The translations under genes and the position numbers were made by a program. This document shows positions 1-20,000 of a stretch of DNA of 20,582 bases, piece by piece. Position 1 is the first letter of the stretch. Every line of letters begins with the position of its first letter. This DNA comes from a virus. The stretch is taken from positions 1 through 20,582 of the IMG/VR virus record IMGVR_UViG_3300025141_000982, one strand, 5' to 3'. The notes below the pieces were generated by a model. That model had not been told where the DNA came from and did not search any database. It was given only the letters and a program-made list of their open reading frames with translations.

Positions 1-232
1 AATGAAGAGAGCCGTAAAATTCTCTTTGGGCTGCAGATTGTGTGGTGATTCCACCGGAGCCAACAACCAGCGTCTCATCGTTTTCTTGGAATAAGAGAGA
101 GATATCAAACATTAAGGAAGAATTTTCCGTGTCCTCACTGCTTCCCAGAATTGATATTTTATCTATGTACGGCGCTGGAAGGAACTCGCCCGTGTTTATT
201 ATAATATCGCCATTAAAAATCAGGTCTGACAT
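1..232 (-). CDS. Hypothetical virion-operon protein, partial (3' end beyond left edge)
   Basis: An open frame begins with ATG at 232-230 and stays open to base 1, giving 77 codons of an unfinished protein. It starts MSDLIFNGDIIINTGEF and continues with a mixed polar and hydrophobic, probably beta-rich sequence. The start is supported by GGAG at 244-241, eight bases upstream (GGAG-CCAGAAAT-ATG), and by a 13-base overlap with the end of the preceding gene in a different frame, which is typical of coupled phage genes. The visible part includes a DISLLFQEND segment and a Gly-rich VVGSGG patch. I recognise no domain. By position it is the next gene of the tail/baseplate operon, so a virion role is likely but inferred only from neighbours. 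The C-terminal part is not in the window. Confidence 0.6.
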   Translation of the reverse strand, partial: MSDLIFNGDIIINTGEFLPAPYIDKISILGSSEDTENSSLMFDISLLFQENDETLVVGSGGITTQSAAQREFYGSLH

Positions 233-1224
233 ATTTCTGGCTCCGTCACTGTACCGTAAATATCATAAAATAAACTATCACCTCTTTTATCCCGGCAATC
301 GAAATCTAGATCGATATAATAAGACTCTTTGCTGAAGTCGGTGGTGGCGCGGCATGCTATTTTTCGATCGGAATTTCGATCTGTAAGAACGTCAAAATAA
401 TACTCCACACTGTCTGCAGATAGTTCTGTATCTGATAATCTATCCGGCGTTTCTGAAACTAAAAAACCATTTTGAACCTGCGGCGAATTTCTCCTGAAAT
501 ATTTTCTGTTTAACTGTTGGGGCGTGTTGTCCCCAGAAACATCAAGTATTTCGTATACCTCAATTTCAAAATTTTCTGTTAGCAAAATCGTGTTAAGTTC
601 TTCGACGTAATAAAACGGATCTTGATGTTCTATTTGTATAACCTTGCCATCGCTGAATACTGCTGTTTTATCTCCAACTCTTCGAAAGGAGGTAGGATCA
701 AAATCCAAAGTGTTATTCTTTATTCTTTTCACATATGTCGATTCAATGTTTATTTGTGGAATTAGAGAATTGTTGGCACTATCTCTGTTTTGTGTTGAAA
801 CGATTCTACTTTGAATTGAGACAACCTTCCATGCCGGCGCCCTATCTATCTCGGCGCCGGAGTTCACATCGCTTATGGAGCCATCTATCTTAAAGATGTC
901 CGACTCGGGTAAAGATGCTCTGTCGATTTCTCGAGGCTGATCATAGGTTCCGGCCGTTCCCCCGCGAAAGCCATTTAGAGTCTCATCCAGATCGCGAAAT
1001 AGAGTCAGACTTTCGATATACTGCGTATCATTCTTAATTCTATTATGTATTATACTTTGGTTCTCGGCCGAGGCACTGTTTGTATATTTTTTATCATAAA
1101 TGATATTGTTATCATAAAATGCGTAATAGACCGGCTTAAAAGTTCCCTTAGACAACAGATGGCGGCCATAGGTTGTAAGCTCTATGTCGTAAACTTGCTC
1201 TTTTTTGTTTAAAAATTTGGCCAT
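220..1224 (-). CDS. Conserved-looking hypothetical virion protein, 334 aa
   Basis: Complete gene, ATG at 1224 and TGA at 222-220, encoding 334 residues. The start is fixed by a TAATG junction: the TAA of the 3042-residue gene shares one base with this ATG, and a purine-rich GGAAGAGAGAG at 1239-1229 precedes it. The N-terminus (MAKFLNKKEQVYDIELTTYG, then KPVYYAFYDNNIIYD) is the most distinctive part. From memory it resembles a small structural gene that follows giant tail proteins in uncultured marine phages; no search was possible. Other marks are RAPAWKV near residue 130, IPQINIE near residue 157, and NFEIEVYEI near residue 220. No signal peptide, membrane span or catalytic motif is visible. 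The high Asp/Ser/Tyr content and alternating pattern suggest a beta-rich virion subunit. Function unknown; a baseplate or fibre-attachment role is inferred only from operon position. Confidence 0.6.
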   Translation of the reverse strand: MAKFLNKKEQVYDIELTTYGRHLLSKGTFKPVYYAFYDNNIIYDKKYTNSASAENQSIIHNRIKNDTQYIESLTLFRDLDETLNGFRGGTAGTYDQPREIDRASLPESDIFKIDGSISDVNSGAEIDRAPAWKVVSIQSRIVSTQNRDSANNSLIPQINIESTYVKRIKNNTLDFDPTSFRRVGDKTAVFSDGKVIQIEHQDPFYYVEELNTILLTENFEIEVYEILDVSGDNTPQQLNRKYFRRNSPQVQNGFLVSETPDRLSDTELSADSVEYYFDVLTDRNSDRKIACRATTDFSKESYYIDLDFDCRDKRGDSLFYDIYGTVTEPEICQT

Positions 1225-4200
1225 TATTCTCTCTCTTCCGGGCGAGGGCGAGCGGGGCGATCCTCACCTTCACGCCGGGAGTCTTTCTTTCTATCCTCTT
1301 TATATAGAATTTCGGCCTCAAATTTAACTGATTCTACAAAAGATACGTAATCGTACGGCCAATTAAACTCAACCGGGTAATTCTCTTGCACCTTGCGGGA
1401 GTCAAAAATATCCTTGGGTCGCGACGAGCCGCCGGCCTGCGGGAAAATCTTGTCTCTATATTGAGCTTGGGAGCGCTGCTTTACCTTAAAAACCATCCAT
1501 CGTGTATCGTCACCCAACACGTCTTCTTCTGTTAGAAGTTGGTTGTCGTCAAGTAAATGCGTTATAGATTGAGACGTTTTTGTAATTTTTTTATAATTTC
1601 TCGGGGCAACATTTTGCCATATATAACTCAAGTCATCCCTATCAAACGTATATTTAAATTCAAAAATATACATTGCCATCGGATCAATTTCTTGTCTGTT
1701 AATAAAATCGAACTGTGGAGGTAGCACGTATTTTTTCATCTTCCTTATAAGCTTTCTAATCGAGGCGCCGGCGTAACTTAAGGAATCACCCTTTCGGCTA
1801 TCGATCTTCGTAGAAAGACTGGCATCAATAATATTACGATCTATGCCGAAAAACATTTTTCTCTGGGAATTTAAATTCTGGTTACTGGAGTCTTCTCCAC
1901 CAACAGACATCTTATAGGGAATCGCCACTATTGCCTCCCTAATGGTCATGCTATCAGCAAGCTTGCCGAGCTTCTTTCTGGAGTTGCCTCCCTCAAATTT
2001 GACGATATCAGTGAGTGGCTTCATCGTCTGGTGGACGGCATCGCCTCCGGAGGTGTTTTGCAGGTTATATATACTGGGGGAGCGGAGCACACTATAGTGA
2101 TATTTCAGCCAATCGTTCGGGATTTCCCCAATCTCCACAAAAACACCCTTCCCCGGGTCCGGTTCAATAATGCCGAATTGGTGCCACATTCCTCGCGGTA
2201 CAGAGCCGGATCCATAGCCAGTAGGAAGTGTGAGCGTGGACGAGGCACTGCTGATCGGGTGGGCGCCAGAATCATTGAAATTTAGCATCGGAGTTTCAAA
2301 CTTGGGCTGTATGACCCACCTCTGACCAACAGACTCATTCTCTGATAGGATTTCATTTCCGAAACGATCGCGGCGCGAGCGGCGAACTCTTTCAATTCCA
2401 AATAAATTAATGCTCGCCTTTGCCTGCATGGCATTTTGGTTTATATTTTTCCCTTCGTAAATTAGATTTTCAAGTATATTTGTACCATAGTCTAGAGTTC
2501 CAGAATTTCTACTATACGTCGCTATAAGCTGTGTGTTGACAAATTGAGAATTGCTATCGGTGGGAACGCTACCCGGAGGGGTCGCCACACCAGGATCAAC
2601 CCTCCAATATTCAGTTTTAATTTCCGATAGTATTCTTTCTAAATCGTATGCAGTACCGGCAGTCGGGGCAAACACGAAATCTACCCAAGCTTCTCCGTTG
2701 TAGTAGGGCGGCGTATAGGCCCAGTTAAAGCCGGATAGGCTGTCCAGAGGGCAACTGCCAGTCACAAAACTATTGCTAGCACTGGCCGCTGTTGGGCGCC
2801 CGCTAATGGCCGGCCCAAATGCTGTTGGGCGGCTATACATTGTGAAATTTTCCTTAAAAACGCTTTTTGGAGCCTGTCTCGGATCTTGCGGCAGTGGGAA
2901 CTCCCCACTTTCGAAGGCACTTGAAGCCGTGTTATAGTATTTTGCGCCGTACGTGCCGTAAGCCAAATTATCACCAGAGGCGCCCGATTCATATGTGTAG
3001 ACTCTATTCCCGCCGGCGGATCTCCGAAACTTTAGACGGCCGCCGTAAACCGAGCCCGTTTCAAATCTCAGGCCATCCGTTACAATCGCGGATTTCAACG
3101 TTGTATACTCACCATCACTCAAAAAGAAGTTGGCGATCTCGGCAAAGAAATTTGAAGCCATCTTCGAATAAATTTCATCGCTACCTATGCCGTTTAGCGA
3201 GGCTGTCGCACCGTCAAGGGTGGCTGACGGGTGTGGCTCGCAATCAAAAAACTTGACATTATTTATGTGGTGTTCTGGTTTAATTAGAGTTTCGAACGGT
3301 ACCCGAAAGTCCCAGAATTCGCCGCCGGCGTACCCGCCCTGAGCATCTACAGAACTGGTGGCCGTTATCATCCAGGCGTTCCTCTTTGACCCGGCGGAAG
3401 CTGCACTTACATAAAATTCTTCTTTTTTGAATTTGGTTGGGGATGTTACGATCGGATAATCTACCGCAATGCCAGATTTAATCGTATTATATAACAGCCC
3501 GGGCGCAAACAAGGCTTGTGCCAGCGGGCGACTCAGCCCGGGCGGATCATTAACCACATCTCCATTGCTGTTTTCGGCCATTATCAGACTTGAGTAAGAG
3601 TCTCTAAACTTCTCAACCAAATCTATAGTGCGCTGGGCCGGATAAAAACCCTTATACGGGTTAAATCGTATTGACGCACTGCAAACTAATCTTATTTCGG
3701 CGCCGCGTAAATCGCTTTTTTTCTTTATATTTAAAAATTCTCTCATAAAATCTGAATTCGAATAATCTTTATAAAAGGAGCCTGTAGTGCTATTCGCATC
3801 TGTGCCGACAATTTCAAAAGTATCAAGTACCCTGCCGCCCTTCAGGCCATACCTCTCATAATCCTCAACGTGTTGGCTAATTCTAAATTCTGGCACTACC
3901 GCATATCCGCGAGTTACTCTCTTTAGTTCGCTCCTGAAATCATCATAGGTATCAAACCATGGTTCTGATGAGGCTGATTGAAACACAAATGAGGAGCCGG
4001 TTTTGATAACAAGGCCGGCTTGCGCTGCAGCCTCCCATGCGGCGGCGCCGGCGCCAATATCTATGACATTACCAAAGAACCCGTCGCCGCTATAAGAGCC
4101 GGTTTCTGGAATATCAGGCCCTGCGGGTGATGCCACAGTTTTGGGGCCGCCGAGCATATGCTTTCTAGCATAGAGCGCGGCTGTTGTGGTACTGGCATTT

Positions 4201-7200
4201 CGGTCAGCGTTCACTGCACTACCGCTTAAAACTTGCATATAGCCGTTCTGTAATTCCCCCGCCGAGTTTGAGCGAATTAATTCGTTATGCGGGCTGCCGG
4301 GGACTATTACCGGCACGGTGGTTCTTGTTAGAAAGTCTATCGGCTCATCGAGCGGCCAAGAACTTTGGCTGACCTCTCTCCCGTATGAATTAATTAAAAT
4401 GCTATCTTTATGAAGATCATATCGGCCCTGCGCGGAGGTGCGCCAAAAAAGGTTATCATAACCATCTCTCTTAGTAGAGATTGCCGAAAATTCGTTTAAC
4501 CTGGATGGGAAAAGTGTTTCCGAATAAAGAGCCCAATTTAATGAGTATTTGCTAGAGTTTCTAACGATCTTGACTATTTGATCGAATGGGGTAACTGTTC
4601 TTTCTTCAGGATTAACAAGCAGGGTGTCATTTAACTCTTCATTGCCAAAATATATTTTTTCATTACCATAAGTTGCTTTGATTACAATGTCTGTCTGACC
4701 GGCGTTAATGCCCATCGATATGGGACTAGCCCTCTCAGTAAACGGCGTGAATGTATAGCTTTTCAGTCCGTTATTTTCAAAAGTAAGCGTGTTGTCTTTT
4801 CTATGCTTTCTAATTATCGGATGAGCCACCGGGCCATTTATGGGGGCGGCCCTATATCCAAAAACACCCTTCCTTTTCGACAACAGCAAGTTGAAATAAT
4901 CAGCCTGCGTATTGAGATCGACGGCGGTGTTTATGCCGGCCCTGTCCAGCAAATCTGTATTATAATAATCACCCACATCAGACCCCAAATTTTCTCCGAG
5001 GTTGTTATCGCCGCCACTATCGACAGGCTCACTAACATAAATATTCAAATCTAAAGTCGGCTGATAAATTGAAGCAGTGCCGGCCTTACCTAATACAGAA
5101 CTTCCCGACACAAAGTCAAAGTAGGCTGTATAGCCTGTCGCGGAGCTTGAATAATAGCCGGCCTGGGGGCCTCGTAGCGCCGCAAAACCATAATATCTAA
5201 GATTGGCGCCGTGCCCTTCGGGCGAAAGGGAGCTAGTAATCCATGAGTATTGACGGTCGGCGCGGGGGATTTGGTGCTGAACAAAGAAGTTGTCAAACTG
5301 CGAAGCGCTGTAAAAAGTGCCGCCGGCGTTTTGGCGAATCATACTTCTAGGATTTCGTTGAATTTTATTGAATGCCGGTGATTCGTTGATGGATGCGCCC
5401 GGGCTTGCTACCAGGGTAGAATCGCGGCCAAATCTTCCGGAATGGCGTTGTAGATGAGCTACGAGGCCAAAGTCGTTACCGTGTATGTCAGAGACTCTAA
5501 TACCGGCTGTTCCGGAGCCTGTAGCCTCCGACACTGTACCAGAAATATTTTGGTAGGGCCTACGTACCGTTAGATTTCTGTAGCTAAGGGCGTTATATAC
5601 AGAGTACTCATTGGAACGTATGTCGCCATACCCGTGACCCAGCACTTCGACTGAGCCCGGCGCCGAAAAGCGGCTTCTAATAATAGATTTATTGGTGCTG
5701 GCCGTGAAGTAGCCCACGCTGTAATCTGGAATAAACTCAAAATGGCCGCTATCAGACCGATGGGAGTCAAGAATTAGTCGTCCCTGCGACGTGGCGGGCG
5801 CCTGAGTAATCTGAATCGGAAGTACCGGCGGGCTCTCGACAAAGCCCCGGGGGTTCGAATACCCTCCCACGCTGTGTACAATTTCGTAATTATGTGCATA
5901 GTTCCCAAGAGTCGGGGGGACAGTGGACAGGAGTATATTTCTGATGTTCACTGGGCGCTTAGCCACGTGATCCCGGTAAAAAACAGCTTTCTGAGAAGCA
6001 GTCATGGGGTAGGGGGCGACTCCTACGGCATTAGCTTCCGGCCATGGGTAGTCTGCGCCGGCCATGCCTAGGCCGCCAATCTTACCACCGGAGCCGGTTA
6101 GGGTACCAAGAAGTATTTTCCATGCTTCTGGGCGATTTGTATAATTATCGTTGCCAGAGTTTAATTTGATATGTCGGTGTTGAGAACCGCCCACAGCGTA
6201 GCTAGTGAACGGGCCCTGCATCGGCGTATCCATATCTGGTCCGTAAGCATCATTGTGGACATTTACAATATCAATTCCGCTCACCACGTTAGCGGCGACC
6301 TTGCCAGAATAGCCGGTAGTAACTGAAGAATTAACAACATTGAACGGGAAAGCAAAAGAAGATTTTACATTCGCGGGACCATAACCGCCATCCCAGTCTC
6401 TTCCATGTTGTGTCTTGAAAAATCTTTTAATTTTTTTGTTCGGGAAGTTATTATAATACTCTTCTTTGACGGGCTCTATGTCTTCGGCAAAAGCAACCAA
6501 CACATTGAGGGGGACAAAAACCCCCCCGTCTGTATTCACTGGGCCGGCCGGATATAGGGCATTTTTCGTGAACTCTATATTTTTGTTATCTTCAAAATTA
6601 ATTCCACCCTTAAGGGTAGCCGGGGAGTTTTGTTTCCTCGTAATTTCAAGCAAATATGGTTTTGACAATATTTTTTGAAGATTTTCGTTTCTATTATATG
6701 TTATTCCACCCACACTAGAGAGCGTAACATCTTTTTGATTATTGACCAAACTTATATTATTCAATATTGTTCGGCGCGCGGCGTCAACGATCGCATCTCC
6801 GGAGGACTGAAAGCTCCCGGGCTGGGCGCGTGAACGCGCCACTGGTGGAGCACCTATAATATCGGCGGCAGGAGTCTCGAGTTCTGTCCCAATATTGTAT
6901 GTCTTTTCGCCAACACCCATGACAGGAGCCTCCAAAGACCTTCTGGAAAACTCAATCGTCGGAAATGGTGTCTTGTATTTGTTTCTTTCAAGTACGTGGC
7001 TTTCAATAATGTTATAAGAATTCTCAATAAATTTCGCGGAGGCCGGAACGACTTGTGCGATAACCTGCGCAATCGCGTCATCCAGCCATCTGTAATAATT
7101 TATAAATTTCTCCACGTTGGAAACGGTTGTCACCTTTCTGAAAAAGATCTCTCTGAGCTTTTCAAGCCCCTTATAGCGTTCGCGGTATCTATTAACCGGC

Positions 7201-10200
7201 GCGCCAATAACATTGTTGAAGTCGATTACACCGGCAAAAAAATGCAACATCTCTTCGGAAATGGCGCCGTACATGCTTTTTTCTACGGCGTGAAAGAAGG
7301 TTGCGGGGATATTTTTTGTGCCAAATACCTTTTCTTGATCTCCGTAGATGTCTATCATTGTCGAAGACACTGGATTCTCGGGGTCAATAAACTTGAGAGA
7401 ATTTATGTTTTCCTTGTTTACTACGCCAGTAGAGTCGGTATTAAAGCCATAGCCATAGCCGGTATACTGGTGGCCTGAAATGCCGCCCACCCAGCCATAA
7501 TTATCGCGAAGTTCCTGGGAGCCCGAACTAAGATCTCGGATATAATAAAATTCGCCACTGCTATCAGAACCCGTAATATTGTCGAAATTCCAATGCAAGG
7601 CAAGGGCGTTTAAATTGGTGGCATCTGTAGAGGATAGGGCGGGGTCAAGAGCCGAAAAATTCTTAAAAGAATCAGATACGCCGGCATTACCTATATCGTA
7701 AAGATGTTGATCTATGTCTTTATCGCTTATGTATCTGACCCAGTGCTTCATGTTGGTTAAAAGAACATCGCTCTTGTCTTTCAAGGATCCGGTAATGTTT
7801 GTTCTTCTAGCGCCGCCATAAATCCTCTTGGCCGCCCTCAAAACTTTTCTTCCCGTTGCCTCCCCTATCGAAGCCGTCAACAAGAAGCTATTTTGAATGA
7901 TATCTTTGACTGCGTTAACGCCGCGAAATTCAAGAGTATAAGAACCAATCGAAGATCCAGTTACTAAATCAACAACGGGATATGTGTCAGGCTTAAGTCT
8001 TACAGAGAAATTCCAATTTTCATTATCATAAACATCATAGAAAAGACTGCTGGTAAGCTCTGGGAAGGGGTTGGGCGAGATCGAAGAAGTAATCTTAAAG
8101 TAAACATTTTTTGAGGCCAGCCTGTCTCTAACAGCCGATACCTGAAAATTAGCTCGGTCTGTCGGAAACCAAGTTGTATCATCGGCAGACGCAGTATTGG
8201 CTTCATGCATGCCAAAGAGAGAAATGTTGGTGAATCTGCGATCCCGGGACGTGTCGTCTCCGTTAAAAGCTGGGAAAATGATATTCGCTTCTACCGTCAT
8301 GCCATATCGGCTCTCTTTGCCGGCCTCATATGTGCCTGAGATATATCCGAGAGCTTCTGGATTGGATGCATCTGCTTTCTGATAGACTACACCAGCCATG
8401 TTCCCGTTTTTATTTAGGTTTACAGAAGTATTGGCTCTGAGTACAAGTTCTAGATTATCTTTTAGGTAAAAGCCTCTTCCATCTGAATATGTTTTTAATT
8501 TGATGATCCTGTCATCAAGATTAAAGCACCTAAAGATGTTTCGAACGGATCGTTCAGTTCCCTTGGACTTAAAGATCCCGGCCAGACTATTATATAGATT
8601 TAAATAAATTAGGTTTTTAGTTTCTGTTAGATCTCCTTCGAAATCTATGTCTTTGTTCCTGTTAAGGAATCTCTCCATAACCGTTGAATCCACAAAAATT
8701 TCAGGCATATAGAGCCCAAGAGACTGCGGCAAATGTTGGGCGAAGGGAATAGGGCTCGCTGATGCGGTGGTGTAATTGGTGCTTTTGAGATCCGGAATGG
8801 CACGAATTTGAAGATAAAGTTTATCGAAGTAGGCGCCGGCAATGTGCGTAAGCTTTCTTAGGTCGCTCGTTGATTCCTCTTCTTCTTCAAGAACCCAGGC
8901 CGGCACAAGACTAACAAAAGAGTTATTGTTGTTGCCATCATGGGCCATTCCTTTGGATAACAGCGTTGTCTTAAGGGCACTGACACTTGAATGGGTAGAA
9001 TAAATTATCGGATCGAGATATTCAGCCGGAGCAGCCAGGGCTTCCACCATGGCAGATGCTGTGGTTCTCGAATTTGCCCCATAGCCTATCCACGTTCCGT
9101 TACTGATTCTACCAGAATAATCAAGAGCGGTGCTATCTATCGAGGAATCTCCCGTTATGCCTTCATTGAACTTGTAATAGACGCCCAAAGTCGCATTGCT
9201 ATAGTCGCTATTGGCGCCACCGCGAACATGATAATTATAATAAGTCGAGATCTGTTCCGAGTCTCTTCTCACTTTCCAAAAGCGAAACTCGTCAAGTGAA
9301 CCACTAAATTTCCCCGAACCCGGAGCACCGATGGGCCCCGCTGGGGAGGCTGAAGCCGTTATAAGGGCTCCTATCCGGCCGGCCATGCCTTTAGAATTTA
9401 ACTCGTTTATCGTAACCGCAGCGGTGTTGGTATCGTTCAACACGCCATTAACGTATAGCTTCGTGACAAAGAAGCTACCTGAATTATAAAAAGCAAAAGC
9501 ATAATGCGCAAAACTTTGTAGGCTTGCCGGAGTGAGCCCGCTACCAATTGATTGCTGATAGATACCAGCGGTTCCGGAAAGTGTCGTAATGAGGAATGGC
9601 GAGGCACCGGAGCCAGTCAACTCTACACGCATACGCCCGTAGCCGGCGCTAGCGGAAGCTTCGCTATTCCACATATCAAAGACGACTTCTTTGGTTGTTG
9701 TCAGAGCGCTTCCAAAGGCGGGCTTCTTTAGCCAAAATTCTACCGTTACGCCGGCATTAAAATCCGATTTTAAATTTGATTCTCTTGTACCCAAACCATA
9801 ATCTGACGGCAGACCGGCGCCAGCATACACACTCTCGTTATAGAGATTGGAGTGTTGAAATTTGTTATCATTGGGATTTGAAAAAGCTTGTGCTAACGTC
9901 TCATGCGAGGACGTATTTGGGCCACCGTAAAAAGTAATATATTCTTGAGTATTTGACAGTCCGTAGCCGGTATCAAATGCCCCTTGCGAGCCCCAGCCGT
10001 CAGCGCTGAAAACGGCATATCCGTTTGTTCTCGGATATTCATTATTAAAAATATATCGCTCTACACCCAGAAGCTTATTAAAAAACTCATTTATTTCGGC
10101 GTCTGAACCATCGTAGGGGTAATAGTCATGAATATACTCGATAGCAGACTTGTAGTAAAGATAGGCAGAGCCGTATTTGGCAAAATTCTCAGGCTGGGAA

Positions 10201-10352
10201 AAGTCTATCTGGGGGATAAACTGTTCCTGTTTTTGTTTTATGGCTCGGACATTTCTTTCTGATTCGACGGTCTTGAATGCGTCTTTTGTGTCGGTGTCAG
10301 AAAGATAATTTCTTGAGGCATCAGCCGAATTGAAAAAATCTTTAATACTCAT
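1224..10352 (-). CDS. Giant multidomain virion (baseplate/tail-fibre) protein, 3042 aa, with LamG-like domain and gpI/gp7-like segment
   Basis: A single uninterrupted 9.1-kb frame, ATG at 10352 and TAA at 1226-1224. Layout: residues 1-120 polar with FIPQIDFSQPENF and YPYDGSDAE; about 198-425 a LamG/concanavalin-like fold (TVEFWLKKP, LYVNG, SGSLDEFRFWKV, GVYYKFNEG); 483-620 a segment resembling P2 gpI / T4 gp7-type wedge proteins (VPAWVLEEEEE, then FKSKGTERSVRNIF); then a very long Ser/Gly/Tyr/Asn-rich region with distinct blocks such as AKRPVNIRNI (near 1467), YSNSDFM (near 2200), IKSGIAVDYP (near 2290), FTMYSRPTAFGP (near 2505), PPYYNGEAW (near 2550) and PRGMWHQFG (near 2718); about 2875-2990 a block starting YVLPPQFDF and including WMVFKVKQR; and a charged tail of about 27 residues. 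From memory these blocks recur in unannotated giant proteins of marine phages. Its position after gp25- and gp6-like genes suggests a baseplate-wedge protein extended with receptor-facing domains. The start overlaps the upstream gene by 11 bases and has only a weak AGAAG, so translational coupling is likely. No intein, frameshift or internal stop is seen. Confidence 0.75.
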   Translation of the reverse strand: MSIKDFFNSADASRNYLSDTDTKDAFKTVESERNVRAIKQKQEQFIPQIDFSQPENFAKYGSAYLYYKSAIEYIHDYYPYDGSDAEINEFFNKLLGVERYIFNNEYPRTNGYAVFSADGWGSQGAFDTGYGLSNTQEYITFYGGPNTSSHETLAQAFSNPNDNKFQHSNLYNESVYAGAGLPSDYGLGTRESNLKSDFNAGVTVEFWLKKPAFGSALTTTKEVVFDMWNSEASASAGYGRMRVELTGSGASPFLITTLSGTAGIYQQSIGSGLTPASLQSFAHYAFAFYNSGSFFVTKLYVNGVLNDTNTAAVTINELNSKGMAGRIGALITASASPAGPIGAPGSGKFSGSLDEFRFWKVRRDSEQISTYYNYHVRGGANSDYSNATLGVYYKFNEGITGDSSIDSTALDYSGRISNGTWIGYGANSRTTASAMVEALAAPAEYLDPIIYSTHSSVSALKTTLLSKGMAHDGNNNNSFVSLVPAWVLEEEEESTSDLRKLTHIAGAYFDKLYLQIRAIPDLKSTNYTTASASPIPFAQHLPQSLGLYMPEIFVDSTVMERFLNRNKDIDFEGDLTETKNLIYLNLYNSLAGIFKSKGTERSVRNIFRCFNLDDRIIKLKTYSDGRGFYLKDNLELVLRANTSVNLNKNGNMAGVVYQKADASNPEALGYISGTYEAGKESRYGMTVEANIIFPAFNGDDTSRDRRFTNISLFGMHEANTASADDTTWFPTDRANFQVSAVRDRLASKNVYFKITSSISPNPFPELTSSLFYDVYDNENWNFSVRLKPDTYPVVDLVTGSSIGSYTLEFRGVNAVKDIIQNSFLLTASIGEATGRKVLRAAKRIYGGARRTNITGSLKDKSDVLLTNMKHWVRYISDKDIDQHLYDIGNAGVSDSFKNFSALDPALSSTDATNLNALALHWNFDNITGSDSSGEFYYIRDLSSGSQELRDNYGWVGGISGHQYTGYGYGFNTDSTGVVNKENINSLKFIDPENPVSSTMIDIYGDQEKVFGTKNIPATFFHAVEKSMYGAISEEMLHFFAGVIDFNNVIGAPVNRYRERYKGLEKLREIFFRKVTTVSNVEKFINYYRWLDDAIAQVIAQVVPASAKFIENSYNIIESHVLERNKYKTPFPTIEFSRRSLEAPVMGVGEKTYNIGTELETPAADIIGAPPVARSRAQPGSFQSSGDAIVDAARRTILNNISLVNNQKDVTLSSVGGITYNRNENLQKILSKPYLLEITRKQNSPATLKGGINFEDNKNIEFTKNALYPAGPVNTDGGVFVPLNVLVAFAEDIEPVKEEYYNNFPNKKIKRFFKTQHGRDWDGGYGPANVKSSFAFPFNVVNSSVTTGYSGKVAANVVSGIDIVNVHNDAYGPDMDTPMQGPFTSYAVGGSQHRHIKLNSGNDNYTNRPEAWKILLGTLTGSGGKIGGLGMAGADYPWPEANAVGVAPYPMTASQKAVFYRDHVAKRPVNIRNILLSTVPPTLGNYAHNYEIVHSVGGYSNPRGFVESPPVLPIQITQAPATSQGRLILDSHRSDSGHFEFIPDYSVGYFTASTNKSIIRSRFSAPGSVEVLGHGYGDIRSNEYSVYNALSYRNLTVRRPYQNISGTVSEATGSGTAGIRVSDIHGNDFGLVAHLQRHSGRFGRDSTLVASPGASINESPAFNKIQRNPRSMIRQNAGGTFYSASQFDNFFVQHQIPRADRQYSWITSSLSPEGHGANLRYYGFAALRGPQAGYYSSSATGYTAYFDFVSGSSVLGKAGTASIYQPTLDLNIYVSEPVDSGGDNNLGENLGSDVGDYYNTDLLDRAGINTAVDLNTQADYFNLLLSKRKGVFGYRAAPINGPVAHPIIRKHRKDNTLTFENNGLKSYTFTPFTERASPISMGINAGQTDIVIKATYGNEKIYFGNEELNDTLLVNPEERTVTPFDQIVKIVRNSSKYSLNWALYSETLFPSRLNEFSAISTKRDGYDNLFWRTSAQGRYDLHKDSILINSYGREVSQSSWPLDEPIDFLTRTTVPVIVPGSPHNELIRSNSAGELQNGYMQVLSGSAVNADRNASTTTAALYARKHMLGGPKTVASPAGPDIPETGSYSGDGFFGNVIDIGAGAAAWEAAAQAGLVIKTGSSFVFQSASSEPWFDTYDDFRSELKRVTRGYAVVPEFRISQHVEDYERYGLKGGRVLDTFEIVGTDANSTTGSFYKDYSNSDFMREFLNIKKKSDLRGAEIRLVCSASIRFNPYKGFYPAQRTIDLVEKFRDSYSSLIMAENSNGDVVNDPPGLSRPLAQALFAPGLLYNTIKSGIAVDYPIVTSPTKFKKEEFYVSAASAGSKRNAWMITATSSVDAQGGYAGGEFWDFRVPFETLIKPEHHINNVKFFDCEPHPSATLDGATASLNGIGSDEIYSKMASNFFAEIANFFLSDGEYTTLKSAIVTDGLRFETGSVYGGRLKFRRSAGGNRVYTYESGASGDNLAYGTYGAKYYNTASSAFESGEFPLPQDPRQAPKSVFKENFTMYSRPTAFGPAISGRPTAASASNSFVTGSCPLDSLSGFNWAYTPPYYNGEAWVDFVFAPTAGTAYDLERILSEIKTEYWRVDPGVATPPGSVPTDSNSQFVNTQLIATYSRNSGTLDYGTNILENLIYEGKNINQNAMQAKASINLFGIERVRRSRRDRFGNEILSENESVGQRWVIQPKFETPMLNFNDSGAHPISSASSTLTLPTGYGSGSVPRGMWHQFGIIEPDPGKGVFVEIGEIPNDWLKYHYSVLRSPSIYNLQNTSGGDAVHQTMKPLTDIVKFEGGNSRKKLGKLADSMTIREAIVAIPYKMSVGGEDSSNQNLNSQRKMFFGIDRNIIDASLSTKIDSRKGDSLSYAGASIRKLIRKMKKYVLPPQFDFINRQEIDPMAMYIFEFKYTFDRDDLSYIWQNVAPRNYKKITKTSQSITHLLDDNQLLTEEDVLGDDTRWMVFKVKQRSQAQYRDKIFPQAGGSSRPKDIFDSRKVQENYPVEFNWPYDYVSFVESVKFEAEILYKEDRKKDSRREGEDRPARPRPEERE
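8490..8906 (-). other. Putative P2 gpI / T4 gp7-like baseplate-wedge segment within the 3042-aa protein
   Basis: Residues of about 483-620 read VPAWVLEEEEE, then a helical stretch (LTHIAGAYFDKLYLQIRAI), then a hydrophobic block (LPQSLGLYMPEIF), then helices ending LYNSLAGIFKSKGTERSVRNIF. Known P2 gpI-type tail proteins (the TIGR02242 type) share this order: an N-terminal P-x-(W/L) with acidic residues, paired helices, a 'LG' block, and a terminal Y-(R/K)-x-KGT followed by basic and Leu/Ile residues. The spacing here, about 110 residues from Trp486 to Lys597, fits such a module. Gene order supports it, since gpI follows gp25- and gp6/J-type genes in many contractile tails. The assignment is inference from pattern and order and needs a profile comparison. 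Confidence 0.5.
9080..9760 (-). other. LamG/concanavalin A-like domain within the 3042-aa protein
   Basis: Residues of about 198-425 show the usual sequence of a Laminin_G_3-type jelly roll: an opening strand VTVEFWLKK; a middle block with FAHYAFAFYNSG followed by KLYVNGVLNDT, the typical 'observed value, then artificial ligand-loop asparagine' region; then FSGSLDEFRFWKVRRDSEQI; and a closing GVYYKFNEG ... ALDYSGRISNGTW. In phages and bacterial adhesins such domains bind glycans or act as structural decorations. Here the domain would lie near the N-terminus of a giant wedge or fibre protein. The limits are approximate, and the specific fold is assigned from pattern, not from a profile search. 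Confidence 0.7.
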
Positions 10353-11862
10353 AATCTTCTACTCTAAATTTGAACACTTTGGATTGCTCGGACCAGGATT
10401 TTAAATCATTATCATAGAAGGCAAATTTGAAGGCATATTCGTAACCAGACTCGAGATTCGCCATATCAAAATCAAAATAATTGCCAGAAACATCGTAAGA
10501 CATCATGGTATGAAGATCTGAGCCGGTTCCATATGGAATAGCATTATAAGCATCGATAGTCCTGTAAACCGTGTAGGAAGCACTGGAAATTGAAGTGCTA
10601 TCGGGGTGTGCGTCAGCTACGGTGTAGATTGTTGGGCTCCAGTACTTATTCCTCGTATAAAGATTAAATCTTGCAATTTCATCGGCCCGATAACTATTTC
10701 TGAGATTCGTTATGTTCAAATAGTAAGTAGGCTTGGAAACGGTTTGTGCAGCGCTTAAAGTTTCAGGGATTATCGAGCCCGTCGCATACTCGGTGGCGCC
10801 CGAATGCCATACATCAAACAGCTTTGTAAGTGGCGTGGACGACGCTGTAGTTGCCACAGAGGCAGAATAAATCCCCGTTGATACCCAGCCACCGGTAATA
10901 TTTGTATTGCCGTCATAAAGAATAAGCTTTGAGCCGCTTGGCGTAGAATTGTTGCTCGAGCCGGAATAAAGACTCAAAAGAATCTCCCCAGTACTAGGGC
11001 CAGGAATGTCCACCAGCCGCCCACGAATATAATTATAAAGATAGATTGTATTTAGATTGTCGGCGGCGGGAGCTAGAGAACTACTGTAATAAAAATTCCC
11101 CCTATCATCCTTAATCGTGCTGTCCCACCTCGCCTCTATAACGGGCGCCTTAAAAAAATATTGCGAGCCGCTGGCGAAAAAGCGTTTTGTAAAGTAAGAA
11201 GTCGTAGAGCCGCTCGGGTTATGAATGATCGCTCCAGCATCCTGCCCGGTAGAACTTGAATGATAAGCCTCATAAGAGGACGATAGCCTAATTCCAACGC
11301 CATAATTTACTTGGGTGCCGTCCATCCACATCTCAACTAATTGAGAAATGTCAATGCTTATATCTTCTAAGCCGGTCGAAAAATCTTGAGAGTAGTGGTA
11401 TCCCGAAGATGTTATGTAATCCCCCCCGACACTAGTCCAAGCTGCCGTATTGGAAGCAGACATCCAATTGACACCCTCATTGCCAGCCGTCTCATCTTTA
11501 TAATTCTCTAAATCGAGGCCAATGCCCTCCTGCCACGATCTGGAAACTGCTGAAACCGCCAAGGTGAAGCTTCTCGGCACTGTCTTAGAATGTACCGCGT
11601 TAAACACCCTCAGATAAAAACTAACACTGCCGCTAGCGGGAATGGATCCGGCAGCCCTATCAATCGTTATATCTGCAACTGGGAATTTCATTAAAAATCG
11701 AGACAACTCCTGAGAGCCCGTGGATTCTCTGCCATAAATCGAAAATACTTCGACTATATCTGCCAAGCCGGTATTTGAACCGGTGCCTCGAGCTGTCAAA
11801 TTTGATTTATATGCATTCACTATGGTCGCATCCATGGCGGCGCCGTAACGCTTAATGGCCAT
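10342..11862 (-). CDS. DNRLRE-like beta-rich virion protein, 506 aa
   Basis: Complete gene, ATG at 11862 and TAA at 10344-10342. The start shares one base with the stop of the gp6-like gene (TAATG) and is preceded by AAGGGGAG at 11879-11872, nine bases away, which overlaps the last codons of that gene. Residues of about 10-195 match the DNRLRE pattern known from bacterial surface and phage fibre proteins: an opening 'Ala-x-Asp-Ala-x-Ile/Val' type strand (MDATIVNAY), an ELSRFLMKFPV strand near 55, a SRSWQEGIG block near 108, and ISIDISQLVEMWMDG followed by NYGVGI near 166-185. The remainder is rich in Ser, Thr, Gly and Tyr and ends in a likely fibronectin-like strand set (GYEYAFKFAFYDND, KFRVEDYEY). 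No signal peptide is seen, as expected for a virion component. Such domains are structural or adhesive; here it probably decorates the baseplate or links fibres. It is unusual that it separates the gp6-like gene from the gpI-containing giant gene. Confidence 0.65.
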   Translation of the reverse strand: MAIKRYGAAMDATIVNAYKSNLTARGTGSNTGLADIVEVFSIYGRESTGSQELSRFLMKFPVADITIDRAAGSIPASGSVSFYLRVFNAVHSKTVPRSFTLAVSAVSRSWQEGIGLDLENYKDETAGNEGVNWMSASNTAAWTSVGGDYITSSGYHYSQDFSTGLEDISIDISQLVEMWMDGTQVNYGVGIRLSSSYEAYHSSSTGQDAGAIIHNPSGSTTSYFTKRFFASGSQYFFKAPVIEARWDSTIKDDRGNFYYSSSLAPAADNLNTIYLYNYIRGRLVDIPGPSTGEILLSLYSGSSNNSTPSGSKLILYDGNTNITGGWVSTGIYSASVATTASSTPLTKLFDVWHSGATEYATGSIIPETLSAAQTVSKPTYYLNITNLRNSYRADEIARFNLYTRNKYWSPTIYTVADAHPDSTSISSASYTVYRTIDAYNAIPYGTGSDLHTMMSYDVSGNYFDFDMANLESGYEYAFKFAFYDNDLKSWSEQSKVFKFRVEDYEY

Positions 11863-13655
11863 TATCTAATTCTCCCCTTGATGTCTATTTGTGCAAACTT
11901 TAGCTCCGCGACTGCATTTTTTGGAATAATCACGTAATCTCCTGCGGGAGATAGATTTCTATTAATGTTGAACTTTACTCCAGAGTAATTGCCGGCGCTC
12001 TTACCCGTAACCCTAACACTAACTACATCCATCACGCCCCGAACTTTTGAAAGTTCTTTATATATTTCAGAAATGGATATCGGCTCACCGATATAAAAAT
12101 GAGTCTTGTATTTGGTTTGCAATTGGCGCACACACGCGTCGATTAGCTCAAACTTATCCGCACCAGAAGTTGGAGACACTACAAATTCTATACCAAAATT
12201 AATTACAAAAGCATCGATAATATCGATTGTATCGTTAATCATCCGATAATGATTGAGCCAAGTTTTCAGATTGTTCTTAATGGCGCTATTAGCTGTCACC
12301 AATTTATTAAATTTATTTTCGGAAATAATATACAGATTTAGATTTCGTCTAGAGGAATTCGGATCTTTCTGGGCGGAACATCTTTTTATTGAGCCAAACT
12401 TTGCTGGCATTCTATACGCTATGTTTTCATAGTCAGATTGGGTGACTGCTCTATTCTGGGTTGGAAAAGTATCAAAAATCCTTCTTTTGATCTCACTAGT
12501 CGTTGCATTCGTAACATTTCCAACTATTGGCTCTTCATTGCTAACTTCCACGGAGCCGACTATAGTAGATATTGTAGAACTGTTCAGGCTCTGTCTATCT
12601 TCAAATTCCAATATGGGATTAGAAGCCTTATTTAAGCTGCCCACCGCCAAATTAGAATTAAGCGGCGAGCTATTTCTGTAACTAATGGCCAAAGTGGTAT
12701 TCGATGGAACTATTCCATAACTTTCAGTTTTCGACAGTCTGGTCGGGTCAAAAGTCGTATCAGTGACATAATCTTTTCCAAATATGTCCATCGCTACCGA
12801 TGTTGGATCTGCCACAACATTGGATTCGCTCGGGTTCCCACTTCCAAACTGCAGTATTGTGGAGGAGCGCGTTCTCTCGACTACAAATTTTCTTGAAACA
12901 AGATAAGGCTTCAAAATGGAGGGGACATTGTCATTTCTATAATTCCTATTCGACACCTCTTTGAAAACGATATCCTGCGCGAGATAATCCACTTCAAAAT
13001 ATTCATTCCCGTCAGAATCAGTGACTGAGATAATCTCGGCCATGTTCGAATTGTTTATTTCCACCCTTTTGAATCTCTCATAGGCTCCCACAATAATAGT
13101 TTCGCGACTGAAATATCCTGAAACTACCTGTCCGTACGCCTTGATGGCATAAAAAGTAGGAGCACCAGTTGCGGCATCAGTTCGTGCAGCCACTATTGGA
13201 TTTTCAGGAGAATTAAAATCTACATTTTCTGTCAAAACAAAATTTAGGCCACTGTCAGATGTAAAGCGTGAAGAGCGCTTCATAATCGGGATATATCTCC
13301 TATCCGGGCCAATACCAGTAGCAGAAGCCGGAACCAAGACATAAATAGCAGCCTTGCCGTATGTCGAGGGTCGGCCAGTATATTTATATCCCAGCGCTCT
13401 ACCGTGTCTAAGTACGTTGTCATATTGATAGGCGGTGTCAAGAAAGGCTTCATTTACATTATAATCCAAGTAAAAAGAAAGCTGATCCCCGACGTAAGCA
13501 ACCATATCTGTCATTATGGCCGCGAATGAACCCTCGCTAAAATCTTGAAAAGTATCTGGGTAAAATCTTTCTGCGATTTGCAGCAGATCTCCACGGATGG
13601 TGTTAAACTCTCTATGAGTATAGTCTATTGGCAGTATCTTTTTCTGATCAGACAT
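11862..13655 (-). CDS. Baseplate wedge protein, T4 gp6 / P2 gpJ family, 597 aa
   Basis: Complete gene, ATG at 13655 and TAA at 11864-11862. GAGGGA at 13666-13661, five bases upstream, supports the start, and the gene begins 14 bases after the gp25-like stop. The N-terminal region (about residues 10-100) carries the recognisable wedge motif: REFNTIRGDLLQIAE, then FSEGSFAAIMTDMVAYVGDQ, then FYLDYNVNEAFLDTA, then GYKYTGRPS. The C-terminal half has the J-like core: a FPTQNRAVTQSDYENIA segment near 395-410 (the conserved 'R-A-V-T-x-x-D-Y' element), the strand NFGIEFVV near 485, YIGEPISISEIYKEL near 520, and VRGVMDVVSVRV near 541. In contractile tails this protein forms the dimeric wedge core that clamps gp7-like protein and joins the gp25-like subunit, making the iris that triggers sheath contraction. 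The length is close to T4 gp6 (660 residues) and about twice that of P2 J. It acts in the virion and is assembled in the infected cell. Confidence 0.92.
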   Translation of the reverse strand: MSDQKKILPIDYTHREFNTIRGDLLQIAERFYPDTFQDFSEGSFAAIMTDMVAYVGDQLSFYLDYNVNEAFLDTAYQYDNVLRHGRALGYKYTGRPSTYGKAAIYVLVPASATGIGPDRRYIPIMKRSSRFTSDSGLNFVLTENVDFNSPENPIVAARTDAATGAPTFYAIKAYGQVVSGYFSRETIIVGAYERFKRVEINNSNMAEIISVTDSDGNEYFEVDYLAQDIVFKEVSNRNYRNDNVPSILKPYLVSRKFVVERTRSSTILQFGSGNPSESNVVADPTSVAMDIFGKDYVTDTTFDPTRLSKTESYGIVPSNTTLAISYRNSSPLNSNLAVGSLNKASNPILEFEDRQSLNSSTISTIVGSVEVSNEEPIVGNVTNATTSEIKRRIFDTFPTQNRAVTQSDYENIAYRMPAKFGSIKRCSAQKDPNSSRRNLNLYIISENKFNKLVTANSAIKNNLKTWLNHYRMINDTIDIIDAFVINFGIEFVVSPTSGADKFELIDACVRQLQTKYKTHFYIGEPISISEIYKELSKVRGVMDVVSVRVTGKSAGNYSGVKFNINRNLSPAGDYVIIPKNAVAELKFAQIDIKGRIR

Positions 13656-13669
13656 ATTTGTCCCTCATT

Positions 13670-14038
13670 TTAAATAGTAAACTCAAGTAAATCATCAATG
13701 CCTATTCTCGGTATCGCGTACATAACAGCGATACCTAGCTTATTTCTATCAATATTTTTATCACTGAAGCCAACTTTTCTTATTTCAACAAACGGCAGGT
13801 ACACAGAAGCCTGCTCTCTTATTCGGTTTTCGATTTCCCCGTAGATATTTTCGCCATAATTAGAGAACAAAAACCGAGAAATACCCACGCCATATTGTGG
13901 ATTCATAACCCGCTCGCCAGGATTAGTCAAAATTAGCATTTTTAAATTTTGCTTAATCATTGTTTCGAAATCCTTTATAAGAGAGAATCCGTCCCCAGAA
14001 TCAATACTTAGCGGTAATCTTACACCCAGACCGGCCAT
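13670..14038 (-). CDS. gp25-like baseplate wedge subunit (GPW/gp25 family), 122 aa
   Basis: Complete gene, ATG at 14038 and TAA at 13672-13670, encoding 122 residues, the usual family size. The core motif is clear: FETMIKQNLKMLILTNPGER, then VMNPQYGVGISRFLF, then IENRIREQASVYLPFVEI. The 'T-x-P-G-E-R ... P-x-(F/Y)-G' element and the following amphipathic helix are diagnostic of T4 gp25, P2 gpW and Afp9-type proteins. Despite old 'lysozyme' labels for this family, it is a structural subunit that nucleates sheath assembly on the baseplate wedge. Only the first ten or so residues differ from the core. It has the strongest Shine-Dalgarno of the window (AAGGAGGA, seven-base spacing), fitting a subunit needed in several copies per particle. 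An ATG four bases further upstream is out of frame and soon stopped. Confidence 0.93.
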   Translation of the reverse strand: MAGLGVRLPLSIDSGDGFSLIKDFETMIKQNLKMLILTNPGERVMNPQYGVGISRFLFSNYGENIYGEIENRIREQASVYLPFVEIRKVGFSDKNIDRNKLGIAVMYAIPRIGIDDLLEFTI

Positions 14039-14074: not shown

Positions 14075-17000
14075 CTATTTTTCGCACAATTCGTTATTGG
14101 CATCAAGCGGATTAGTTCTCAGCCGCCGGCGCTGCCACCACGGAACGAACTGTCTGCCGGGCGCTGGCCTAATCGCCTCTCTGAGTCTCTTTAGGAAAAT
14201 TTCCCCGGGGCCGCCGGCTGCTTTCGCTATGTCGGATGGTGTAAAATCTCGAGAGTTATAATAAGCCTTAAACAACTTCTTTATTCTCAGCGTCGAATTT
14301 TTCAATATTTGCTGGTCCCAATTATCCCATTCTCTTACACCCAAGCCTCCCTTTCTATCTTTTAGCGAAGCCCAGGCCCCATCGGGCCCAATGGTTTCCA
14401 ATTCTGCGCTAATCGTTCCATCATCGTTTTGTGTAATATCCGCAAAAATCCCTGGCTTAGAAACCTCGTCAAAACGAATATCTCTCTGGAATGTCTCGCC
14501 ATCATCAACAGTTAACTCTCCTATAGACGGCAACATCGCCATGTCATTATATATGGCCACGATCGATACGAGCTTCGGCATCGGCAAAATATATCGCGTG
14601 ATAAGTCTAAAAATATTATCATTTTTTAGATGGTTGATGAGGCATAGTAACAATTTTCCATCTCGCTCCAAACCTACAAATTTATTCAGTTCAAGGTCGA
14701 GAGCATCTATTTCAGAAAAGGCCACCTCGTATTTTGAACCGCCAACCGCGATAGAAAGAACTAAGCCGTATCTAACTCCCAACTCTCCTTCAAGTGTTTT
14801 ATTCCCGCTTTCATCTTCTACCAAACTCATTGTGCCGGGATAAACTTCCGATATGAGCTTTTTTAAATCTTCATTGGAGCCTATTTCTTCAGCGGCCTTA
14901 GAAGAAGTCATGCGCGTGCCATTAATAGAAACATATTTCTCTATAATAAATGGCTTTTCACTGGATGGCCGCTGTGTTGTTCCTATGTCGCCCAGATCTG
15001 TTGCTTCTATGTCGCCCAGATCTGTTTCTATGTCGCCCACATCTCCGAACGGAATAGAAATTATTCCGGCAATCGGTTTTAATACGTCATGCGGCTCTTC
15101 ATCACTGTGATATTCGCCGGCCATGTAAACTATTTCGCCGTCATCTTCATTTTGATGAACGTGATAATGGCCCACATATTCCTCACCAAGACCAAACCCA
15201 CTATTGTCATTATCTTCAGCAATTACAAATTGGTTTCCATTTGTGTAATAGGGCTCAGAAACTTCATCGTTTTTCTCTACTGGCACTGTCGGAAGATCTG
15301 AATAAAATATAGAGAACTTACCATTCGGAAGCAAGGCGTTATTTAGCGTTAACTCTTCGCCTCCGATCGTCATAGTCTCCAAAAAATAGTAACCGAGATC
15401 CTTAACTTCTGGTTCTAATTCAAGGCGTTTCAAGTTTGTTAATAACTTCTTAGACATAAAATTAATTTGTTCTGTAACCAACTCTTTCATGACTAGCTTG
15501 GCGTCCGACTCGGTGAGCCTTACCGCTTCTAAATTCTTTTCTGCCCTATAGCTCTTTAAAGTTTGAAAAAACTCGGCCTCTCCAAGCTTTTTGGCATCCA
15601 CTAAATCATCGCGGTACTGATATTCATACTCCTCTTGCATATCATTTAACCGAAACAGGGCCTGTAAAACTTCTGATGGGGGATCCGGAATATCCCCCGA
15701 ATCTACCCTGTAGCCGTAATACTGGACACACTGCTCTAAAAACCCATACCAAAACTCTTCATCTTTAAAAGTATTGAAGGCTTCCCAGAGCGGCGGCTGT
15801 GCATCCTTGAACTGCTTTTGCATATTCTCAACGATATAGGAGGAGTAAGCTGAGCTATAAACCATGGGGAATCGCGGAGCAAACTTGGCAAACGTCGGGA
15901 GAGATTTAATCATGTGTGCGCTAACATATATTCTAATCGCGGCGGTTATTAGGCCGGCCATGGCTGCCTTCGCAGAGCGGTCCATAATTCTATTATACGG
16001 CAACTCTTTCACACAATCCGGATCCGATTTTAATCTTTCGTCTTCTGGAATATTTGGATAAAGCTGGCCTATCATGTCTTGGATTTCACCAAAATCAACC
16101 AAATCACTAAGTTGGGGTTTACAAGGACTAAGTTCCGGAAACAGAACATCAACCATTCCAAGCCACCCTTCAGCCTTGGCGGGCTTTATATACAGAGGAG
16201 GATTGACATAGTTGCCCCCGAATTTCATAGGATCCAAATATAAAACGCGGTTCTCGCCCTCTCTTTCTTCAGTTTCTACAAGATACTGCATTCTGCTTAT
16301 TCCCAAAACCATATCATCATTTGTAAGTTTGCGGCCGTCGCGCTCAACATCGCTGTATGGAATAAATTCGCCGCCTTCGTTAACACCATAATCAAAGTCT
16401 TCCTGAGTTAGATCATCAAACTTGGCGCCATAGTTCCAGCTAGTCTCGTCGCCGGCCACATCAGCCATTATGCGTCTTAACATTTCTTGCGTGATGTTCT
16501 GCCTTATTTCCTTTAAATCCCGTGTTTCAAGATTGATATCATTGACTCCGTTAAGGATTTCTTTAAAAAGTAGGGTTTGTGGGGTGTACCACTGTAGCCG
16601 ATCCAAATCGAACGTTGAATTGAATATTGGATAGCCCTCCAAAAGCTCTATCATATCTGGATTGTCAAAAAAAGTATCATCAACTGATAGAAACTCGCAT
16701 TTCAAAGAGGTTACAATTTGGTCTTGTCTTTTCGCCTTCCTCGCTTCGCGCGCGCTAGTGGGTTCGCCGCCGGCATCCAAGCCCGGATTAAACAAAGAAT
16801 CTATTGAAACATCAAGATCGGCTCCAAAATTGAACCGTTCTTCTATCAATATTCTGAGATTGTCATCTTTTCTGTTGACTATGGCGCCGCTTTCATTTTC
16901 GGCTAAATCACCAAAATAGCATTTAATATCAAAGCCATATGAATACGGACATTCGCCCGTAGCCTTAAGCCCTTTCGCATTATCCTCAAAGCTCAATGCG

Positions 17001-20000
17001 ATGTCGGGACTTCCTTTTCTAGCTTTCCTGGTAAACTCGATCTCTTCCACGTTACCGCCAATAACCACATTTTGTATGTCTATGTTGTAGCCAAGGTCTG
17101 GTATCGCCAATAAATCAATGTTTCCGCCGCCGACGACGGCGGCGGCGGCAATGCCGGCCGTACCGGCGACAGCGGCGGCTAATACAATATTGCTGCTCCT
17201 AAAACCCAACTCTTCTATTGTTTTTTGCCATGAATAATCATCAACTTTATCATTATTTATATTAACCGCTGCCGAGCCGGCGGCCATAGACATCAAATCC
17301 TGTAAATATACCGCGACCTTCGTGGGGAATGAGCCTCTCTGGTTTTCTAGCTTTTTACTCAACAGGCTGCCGAATAGCGCTGCCACATTCCCGCCAGATT
17401 CTAAAAAGCCCCCCATGTCAAGGTCAAATTTAGTATAGAAATCAACATAATTGGCTCTATTTGCGGCAAAACGATAATGTGCTGTTAGTGGATTTCCCAT
17501 CGTATCAGAAAGCATCATATTTATCATGCCCCAATTGTCTTCTCCCGGGCCATTGCCGATCATATCTGTTGAATAATCGGCCTTTAAAATCTCAAGATCG
17601 CCACCCAGCACGGAGGCAGCCGCTTCAATGTTAGTTGGCGCGTCGTAGGGCACCAAGCCATTATCGCAGCCGGGATCAGAAACCAGCGGCGGCATATTAT
17701 CTTCTAAATATTTCGGGAGGCCCTTCTGCAATACCGCCGTCAAATCCCCCAAGTCTTCAAGGGCTTGAACATTGTCACACAATGCGCTCAATTGTTTAGG
17801 GCTAGCCCGGCCTTGCAAGACTTGCTTTCTTAGAGTGCAAAATTTCTCTAGCTTCTCCGGGTCGATACAAATTGATGGATTCGCTGGGGTTTCATCGCCG
17901 GGAGGGATATCAGATAACATATCCCTCATCTGTGCTTTGAAGCCGGCCGGCATAAGATTGCCTATATTTTTAAAAAAGCTTCCGATAGCTCTTTTATTTG
18001 GAATTGCTTCGCGATAGCTTGGATATTCAAACTCTATCAAACTTTCTATAATTATCAACATCGAGTCTGACGGCTCTCCCAAAAATGCACTCATCATTTC
18101 AGCTTGTGTTAGGGACGCCGACATGTCTTCTGAAAACTGTATGGCTAAATCAGTGTCGGCTAGCGCGGCCCCACCAACGCCCAGATTGGCCATCATATCA
18201 ATTATGGTGCTGTCCACTACCTGTTCGTCTACTCCATCGCCGCATATGGAGTCCCTTATTAAGTTTTTCAAGGTGTCCCGGCCAGTTAAAAGGTCGGGTA
18301 CGGAGCTTAAAAGATCCCCGTATAAGGCCAAAGCATTACATATGGCATTCCCTATAAGTTCGCAAACCTTGATTATGAGAGCCATTAGTACTTTTAATAA
18401 AGCTTGCTGCGCAGCGAATTTAATTGCTTCGAAAAGTATGTTAAGAATATCCTTATAATTCGCATACCAACCAAACGGGTTGACGAGGCGCGGAAACCGA
18501 ATGTCTTCAACATTGCGGCAAATGGGCAGCTCCAAATCTTGAAACCAATCCATCAATGGGGGATTAAAAAAACTAGCCGGGGGCCTCGGGCAATCTATCG
18601 CAATGATAAGATTTGATATCAGTTGAGCCCCCGGAAACTTGTTAAGCTCATCTACGAGTTCTAACAAATCGTCGCTGTAGACCCCAATCAGTGCCGCAAT
18701 ATATGCCTCTAATACATTTTGTGTATTTAAATCAGAGCCGGCTTTGTCAAATTGTTGCGCTAAGGTTCTATTTGGACTTTCTTTATCTTCGGGATTGGAA
18801 TCCCATTCCCATGGCGGCGTCCAATCATCTTTCCAGGCGTCCAGATCATCGACTCTTAAATCAGAGTTTGGTGAAACCTCTCCCGTTTCTATAAAGTCTG
18901 ATATCTCTTGACCACTTGATCCCTCTACAAGAACATCGCCAGCCTCAAGTCTCTCAAAAACGAGTGCATTGAGTTCATCTTGTTTTTCTTTCGGCAATCC
19001 AACAAAAAGCTCTCCAACGCTATTTACCGACATTGCACGCAGTGCGCTCTCTACTATTTTCCCAAGGGCTTGCTCCAGGGTTAGCCCCCCCAAAAGACAC
19101 CGGATCGTTTCTGATAGGGCATCATACAGCCCGCACAGCTTGATATCGTCTATGCCGGCGTTAAGACCGTCGAATGCCCAGTGGGCCTTTCCTCCGATCG
19201 CCTTGAAGGCTATTGCGTTGGCGCAAAGGGCGGCGAAAGGCTGTTCGGAAACCTCTAATTCGCCAAACGCTTGCTCGAGAGCCATGGCGCCGATATTCGT
19301 CTTCTTTTCGCCCTCTGGCGCGCTAGGATCATATATAACACCAAGCTTGATTTCCTCGTCTAAGGCTTCGCCTAGGCTTGCCTTGCAAAGCTGCTCATGA
19401 AACTTATATGCGATAGCGTCACCAATACTGAAGGCTTCATCAAAAATATCTTGACCAAATTGCTTAGCCTCATTCGCCAAAGCTTCGCGAACACATGACA
19501 AGCCAGTTTGCTCATAATAAGCCAAAGTATTGCTTAAATATACTTCTGGGTATGTGTGCTTAATAATAAAGTCTGTCCACGGCTCTGGCACCCTCGCAGA
19601 CAAGCCGGTATCCATTTCCTTTAGTCTGGCGAAGTAAGCAACCGCCGTTTTATCTTTCCATGCTTGCGAAGACTTTAGATCTGAAAGTATGCCCGACATA
19701 AATATTTGTTTGTCACCACAACCTTCAGTGAAAAATTTGATATTCTTTAAATCAAATTCATCTGTAAATGCAAGAGTGATCTCGGTGACCCTATCGCGAC
19801 CAAGGAAAAGCCTTAAATCGCTTATTTCTCCGCGCGGCATGTTATAGCCGTGCTTATTTAGAAAAGTATCCAGTTCGCTAAAGACATCCCCGATCAAAGA
19901 ATCGCCAACCATACCAAGGAAATCACCATAATCCCCCAAATTAAAAATTCTATTGTCACCTAAAAACAAAATATTTGAGCCATCTCTCATCCTTAAGACT

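Follow-up and report, generated by a model that had tools for sequence, protein, structure and literature searches.

A 3042-aa protein encoded in the window (the 20.6-kb virus fragment analyzed here, 20,582 nucleotides) is very probably the third, gp7-type wedge component of the baseplate in greatly enlarged form; its core would sit in the wedge, and the LamG domains and C-terminal region would point outward. The original prediction had placed a gpI/gp7-like module at 8490-8906 (given as residues 483-620), which on the minus strand encodes residues 483-621 of the 3042-aa open reading frame (ORF). This segment proved to be real and conserved, but the unit runs past residue 620, and a second helical block (about residues 1021-1130) travels with it. 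The core is split into residues ~470-632 and ~1021-1130 by a second LamG/pentraxin-like domain.

Gene order of the wedge cassette

The window carries the following genes, which are transcribed from the minus strand in the order listed:

14075-20581 (-), upstream very large ORF, about 2131-2168 aa or more, open at the window edge
13670..14038 (-), gp25-like sheath initiator, 122 aa (Pfam GPW_gp25 E 6.2e-10; PHROG wedge subunit E 2.4e-18)
11862..13655 (-), gp6/J-like wedge protein, 597 aa (PHROG baseplate wedge subunit E 2.7e-18)
10342..11862 (-), 506-aa protein between gp6 and the giant protein, fixed fourth member of the wedge cassette
1224..10352 (-), candidate giant gp7-like wedge protein, 3042 aa (homologues 2919-4409 aa)
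220..1224 (-), downstream protein, 334 aa, conserved in the cassette

Database searches bore out the gp25- and gp6/J-like genes proposed upstream of the giant gene (Pfam E 6e-10, PHROG wedge E 3e-18), and the 597-aa gp6-like protein additionally showed profile matches to gp6 of P-HM1, ACG-2014f and fENko-Kae01. The predicted order, gp25-gp6 followed by the giant, was also correct, except that a conserved 506-aa gene in between had been missed. This protein (~510 aa in relatives) was found at the same place in every checked locus covering it, and the order gp25-gp6-506aa-giant-334aa was kept in every checked locus spanning the cassette. The very large upstream ORF is conserved across the lineage and returned no matches in PHROG and Pfam searches.

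A length-constrained segment in a variable protein

Using the full-length giant as query, we identified 28 close relatives among viral contigs, while a profile of the segment alone reached at least 510 viral-contig loci in one scan. In the isolate collection, tblastn with the giant and with the 506-aa protein gave no matches. All 22 aligned relatives keep the segment, with a mean column identity of 60% and 19 invariant columns, among them P, Y, D and the K-x-K-G-T motif. Few parts of the giant are as constrained in length as this segment: in 50 full-length homologues of 2919-4409 aa, the length of residues 541-600 was constant (60/60/60) and that of residues 1021-1080 likewise fixed (60/60/61). 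Outside the core, single 60-residue blocks grew up to 766 residues in the same homologues. One relative of 4409 aa (L014, 10001-23227) carries three LamG stretches, one of them near residue 2288-2451, which suggests repeated gain of LamG-type modules.

A core split by a second LamG-type domain

Combining profile searches, AF2 models and alignments of relatives, we divided the giant into the following parts:

9246..9758 (-), LamG-1, residues 199-369, ahead of the core (Pfam Laminin_G_3 E 6e-9, above cut-off)
8457..8945 (-), candidate gpI/gp7-like core, first half, residues 470-632 (AF2 helices; gpI-type model matches in relatives; profile-profile comparison with decoys)
8523..8630 (-), residues 575-610, helix-turn-helix with the KGT motif (KxKGT unchanged across 22 relatives)
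7395..8435 (-), residues 640-986, a further jelly roll of LamG/pentraxin type, inserted between the core halves (AF2 and structural alignment)
6963..7292 (-), core, second half, residues about 1021-1130, helices and PAS-strand (profile matches; AF2 helices)
1227..6932 (-), residues 1141-3042, outer part (hot spots of insertion; some relatives split near 1850-2096; no relative detected outside the lineage)

A LamG domain in front of the module had been predicted and was recovered as LamG-1, in a region that is the site of large insertions in relatives (up to 597 aa); the second LamG-type domain, between the core halves, had been overlooked. AF2 modeled this LamG-2 with a pLDDT of about 70-96, mostly above 85, and the model aligned to a LamG-fold region over 211 residues (VIA-align Z 15.7, rmsd 3.3 A; Foldseek E 2e-5). 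Membership in the LamG/concanavalin-like group was thus matched by profile for LamG-1 and by fold for LamG-2. AF2 confidence of the core helices was about 50-70. Within the first half of the core, the helical pair is the predicted core-bundle part and the KGT helix hairpin the predicted trifurcation part. The outer region (1140-3042) and the N terminus (1-180) had no relatives among reference phages in profile searches.

Compact orthologues delimit the core. Profiles of residues 440-660 and 1000-1150 each matched three proteins that occupy the same cassette position as the giant, in Flavobacterium phage immuto (QQO92079, 1265 aa), Microcystis phage Mel-JY01 (WWT39511, 1336 aa) and LR756508 (1404 aa). 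E values were 4e-14 (immuto) and 3e-15 (Mel-JY01) for the first half, and 8e-12, 3e-7 and 6e-5 across the three orthologues for the second. As no other block of the giant matched the compact orthologues in profile searches, the two halves represent the common core; the gap between them measures ~70 residues in immuto versus about 390 in the 3042-aa protein. The immuto and Mel-JY01 proteins share the gene order and both core halves with the giant, but are about 1700 residues shorter and are annotated as 'hypothetical'.

Similarity of the core to gpI and gp7

Both the VPAWVLEEEEE stretch and FKSKGTERSVRNIF, on which the gpI/gp7 assignment had been based, are present within residues 483-621. When searched alone against Pfam, PHROGs, NCBIfam and the PDB, the window segment gave no useful match and no gpI model, and the 3042-aa protein had no PHROG match to the known gp7 families phrog_964, phrog_2885 and phrog_17744. 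Searching with the 22 relatives, the best-supported tail-family matches were to TIGR02242 (7 members, best E 9e-4, with an unrelated model matching equally many members), Tail_P2_I (3) and phrog_5726 (3). All three are gpI-type families, and all matches in the relatives were sub-threshold: the best relative reached 14.5 bits against the curated PF09684 cut-off of 20.6 bits, for which the window itself had no matches, and the best TIGR02242 score was about 13 against a cut-off of 51.9. For the immuto family, searched independently, the first match was also TIGR02242.

We then considered where such matches fall in whole records, scanning 24 of them (21 related contigs and 3 phage genomes) in six frames, with not every model run on every record. 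All eight gpI-type matches (Tail_P2_I, TIGR02242, phrog_5726) were weak and lay inside the segment or its orthologue, mapping in the giant or its compact orthologue either to the KGT region or to the segment around it. Even counting sub-threshold matches, none was found elsewhere in the 24 records. In line with the prediction, no separate gpI gene was detected in related records of up to 203 kb, which may be incomplete. The segment is hence the sole site of gpI-type matches in the scanned records and the best candidate for the third wedge component, albeit below every curated cut-off.

Profile-profile comparisons were run with controls. Against gp7 cores, hhalign scored 34.4 (E 4e-4) compared to at most 19.6 for 102 real decoy blocks, a value somewhat biased by the gp7-core template, which was cut around the KG motif and so favors it. 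Against gpI, scores were 24.4-24.6, with the 102 decoys reaching at most 20.5 and 150 column shuffles at most 18.2. As a yardstick, gpI and gp7 cores scored 25.9 against each other; the window family is therefore about as close to either as each is to the other. Profile scores thus support homology to gpI/gp7, with gp7 probably nearer than gpI. Moreover, the window family aligns in register with P2 gpI: an N-terminal helical pair precedes the KGT helix hairpin and a strand follows it, and the AF2 model shows this order of helices and strand. The spacing, in turn, is not typical of P2 gpI as had been claimed, since the first Pro and KGT are about 113 residues apart in the window protein versus about 73 in P2 gpI. 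Taken cumulatively, these sequence comparisons point to a gpI/gp7-like segment.

The PDB fold search of the window model returned a list filled by LamG/pentraxin matches that barely probed the core helices, so the lack of gpI/gp7 in this list says nothing. Profiles A1, A3 and A4 retrieved no gpI or gp7 chain from the PDB by sequence, and AF2 of the compact immuto core (13 sequences) gave a pLDDT of 33. The helix-turn-helix (HTH) part scored 20.0 against cyanophage gp7 N termini versus 19.2 for decoys, which is marginal and about decoy level; by eye, the P-x-F-x-R-E patterns of the two are similar. A scan of viral sequences with P2 gpI found only near-identical P2 relatives.

Comparison with known wedge proteins

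Cyanophage gp7, the best profile match of the window family, is likewise thousands of residues long, follows gp25-gp6 and has a KG(T/S) helix in its first few hundred residues. It is annotated directly after gp25-gp6 in S-H38 (5512 aa), P-HM1 (4446 aa) and ACG-2014f (4225 aa), and the 7312-aa 'baseplate wedge initiator' of P-SSM4 was the largest bacterial-virus protein in one survey (PMC8553790). Unlike in the window, a front LamG has not been described for it, and no extra 506-aa gene follows gp6. T4 gp7 (1032 aa) also follows gp6 and carries its core (~646-760, STKGIEASYKFLF) behind ~640 residues of other sequence; it differs in being smaller, in a front that is not LamG and in that a direct sequence match to the window protein is not detectable. 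The T4-type order gp25-gp6-gp7 is the same in the window, plus one extra gene. P2 gpI (Tail_P2_I, PF09684; TIGR02242) shares the position after J, but is a stand-alone protein of ~180-250 aa, whereas the window core sits in a 3042-aa chain, one gene away from gp6. A KGT-equivalent motif is present in P2 gpI, cyanophage gp7 and, as KGI, T4 gp7.

The layout had been proposed as an unusual baseplate design. Because giant gp7 proteins of 4225-7312 aa already follow gp25-gp6 in marine cyanophages and the T4 gp7 core is itself buried behind ~640 residues, it is better described as a variant. New here are the paired LamG layout, in front of and within the core, in a large lineage for which no isolate was found, and the extra conserved 506-aa cassette protein. 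A literature search for a baseplate wedge together with LamG found none, and the literature found on cyanophage and T4 gp7 gives no domain boundaries for the gp7 core.

Gp7-like wedge parts with insertions or lateral domains that carry spikes or fibers have been described, namely XM1 gp17 and Alg12/Afp12 of contractile injection systems. XM1 is the published model for the (gp6)2-gp7 geometry: its core bundle and trifurcation consist of two copies of the gp6-like gp16 and one of the gpI/gp7-like gp17, and the tail spikes are held by insertions in gp17 (PMC10457771). The gp7-like part of AlgoCIS lies laterally, where it interacts with fibers (PMC8894135). XM1 gp17, however, has only 242 aa, and Alg12 consists of fused gp6- and gp7-like parts.

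In Klebsiella jumbo phage fENko-Kae01 (L202, 21467-31495), ENKO_265c, a virion protein by mass spectrometry of 3342 aa, directly follows gp6. This position suggests a wedge/gp7 role; a gp7 core was not detected in the protein, and its PHROG family is labeled 'head and packaging'.

Proposed arrangement and alternative explanations

By analogy to XM1 gp17 with gp16, we infer that the helical core (~470-632 and ~1021-1130) most likely packs against two subunits of the gp6-like protein (597 aa) and that, together, they would make up the core bundle and trifurcation of the wedge, beneath gp25. LamG-1 (199-369), the core-inserted LamG (640-986) and the ~1900-residue C-terminal part would then project outward as lateral baseplate, putatively binding receptor glycans or carrying fibers, and binding at these parts may be passed on to the wedge. 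A stronger version appears rather unlikely: in this abundant lineage, a single covalent chain would serve both as wedge core and as main receptor-binding surface, and the core itself would have taken up a lectin-type domain. If true, glycan binding would move the wedge directly and trigger contraction, with no separate joint from fiber to wedge. A single chain is not obligatory in any case, as two relatives split the giant gene: it comprises two ORFs with a TGATG overlap in L197 (8603-19065) and with a 52-nt overlap in L024 (10001-22263), and the split maps near query residues 1710-2096. These loci, together with compact orthologues that stop at 1265-1404 aa, would also fit a cleaved product in the mature virion, with the N-terminal ~1150 residues acting as gp7 and the rest as a separate, non-covalently assembled part. 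We consider such cleavage improbable, given that the ORF is uninterrupted (2919-4409 aa) in 50 other full-length homologues and that no protease site was identified.

The two LamG-type domains, the long variable outer regions and gpI scores below the curated cut-offs could alternatively mark the giant as a receptor-binding fiber or adhesin, its KGT helix being a chance resemblance and the true third wedge component lying elsewhere. This explanation is disfavored and very unlikely: gpI-type matches occur nowhere else in the related records, and the core is both the most length-constrained part and the only one that the compact orthologues, encoded at this same locus, have retained. Less likely still, to the point of being nearly negligible, is that the 506-aa protein is the gpI/gp7 equivalent. 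It does occupy the gpI position directly after gp6/J and is kept throughout the cassette, with profile matches in immuto, Mel-JY01 and LR756508 (E 1e-12 to 4e-20). Its profile blocks, however, scored no better than decoys when compared with gpI and gp7 cores, its sequence lacks the KGT motif, and PHROG and Pfam searches returned no matches; the Mel-JY01 orthologue resembles CBM96, a beta-sandwich (E 5.5e-5, below cut-off). We therefore rejected it as gpI.

With the giant read as a gp7-type wedge protein, a third wedge component is assigned in a large environmental phage group (at least 510 loci, none in the isolate collection), and likewise in two isolated phages in which the protein was 'hypothetical'. 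The comparison also illustrates how a wedge protein may grow: the length of the gpI/gp7 core stays fixed, and insertions add lectin-type and other domains around it and even inside it. Giant tail genes can thus be annotated with the core as anchor, and the insert-bearing outer parts are likely the host-recognition region. At the other end of the cassette, the N-terminal motif YDIELTTYGRHLLSKG of the 334-aa protein has a weak match (E 0.001) in a 217-aa frame that follows the Mel-JY01 orthologue.
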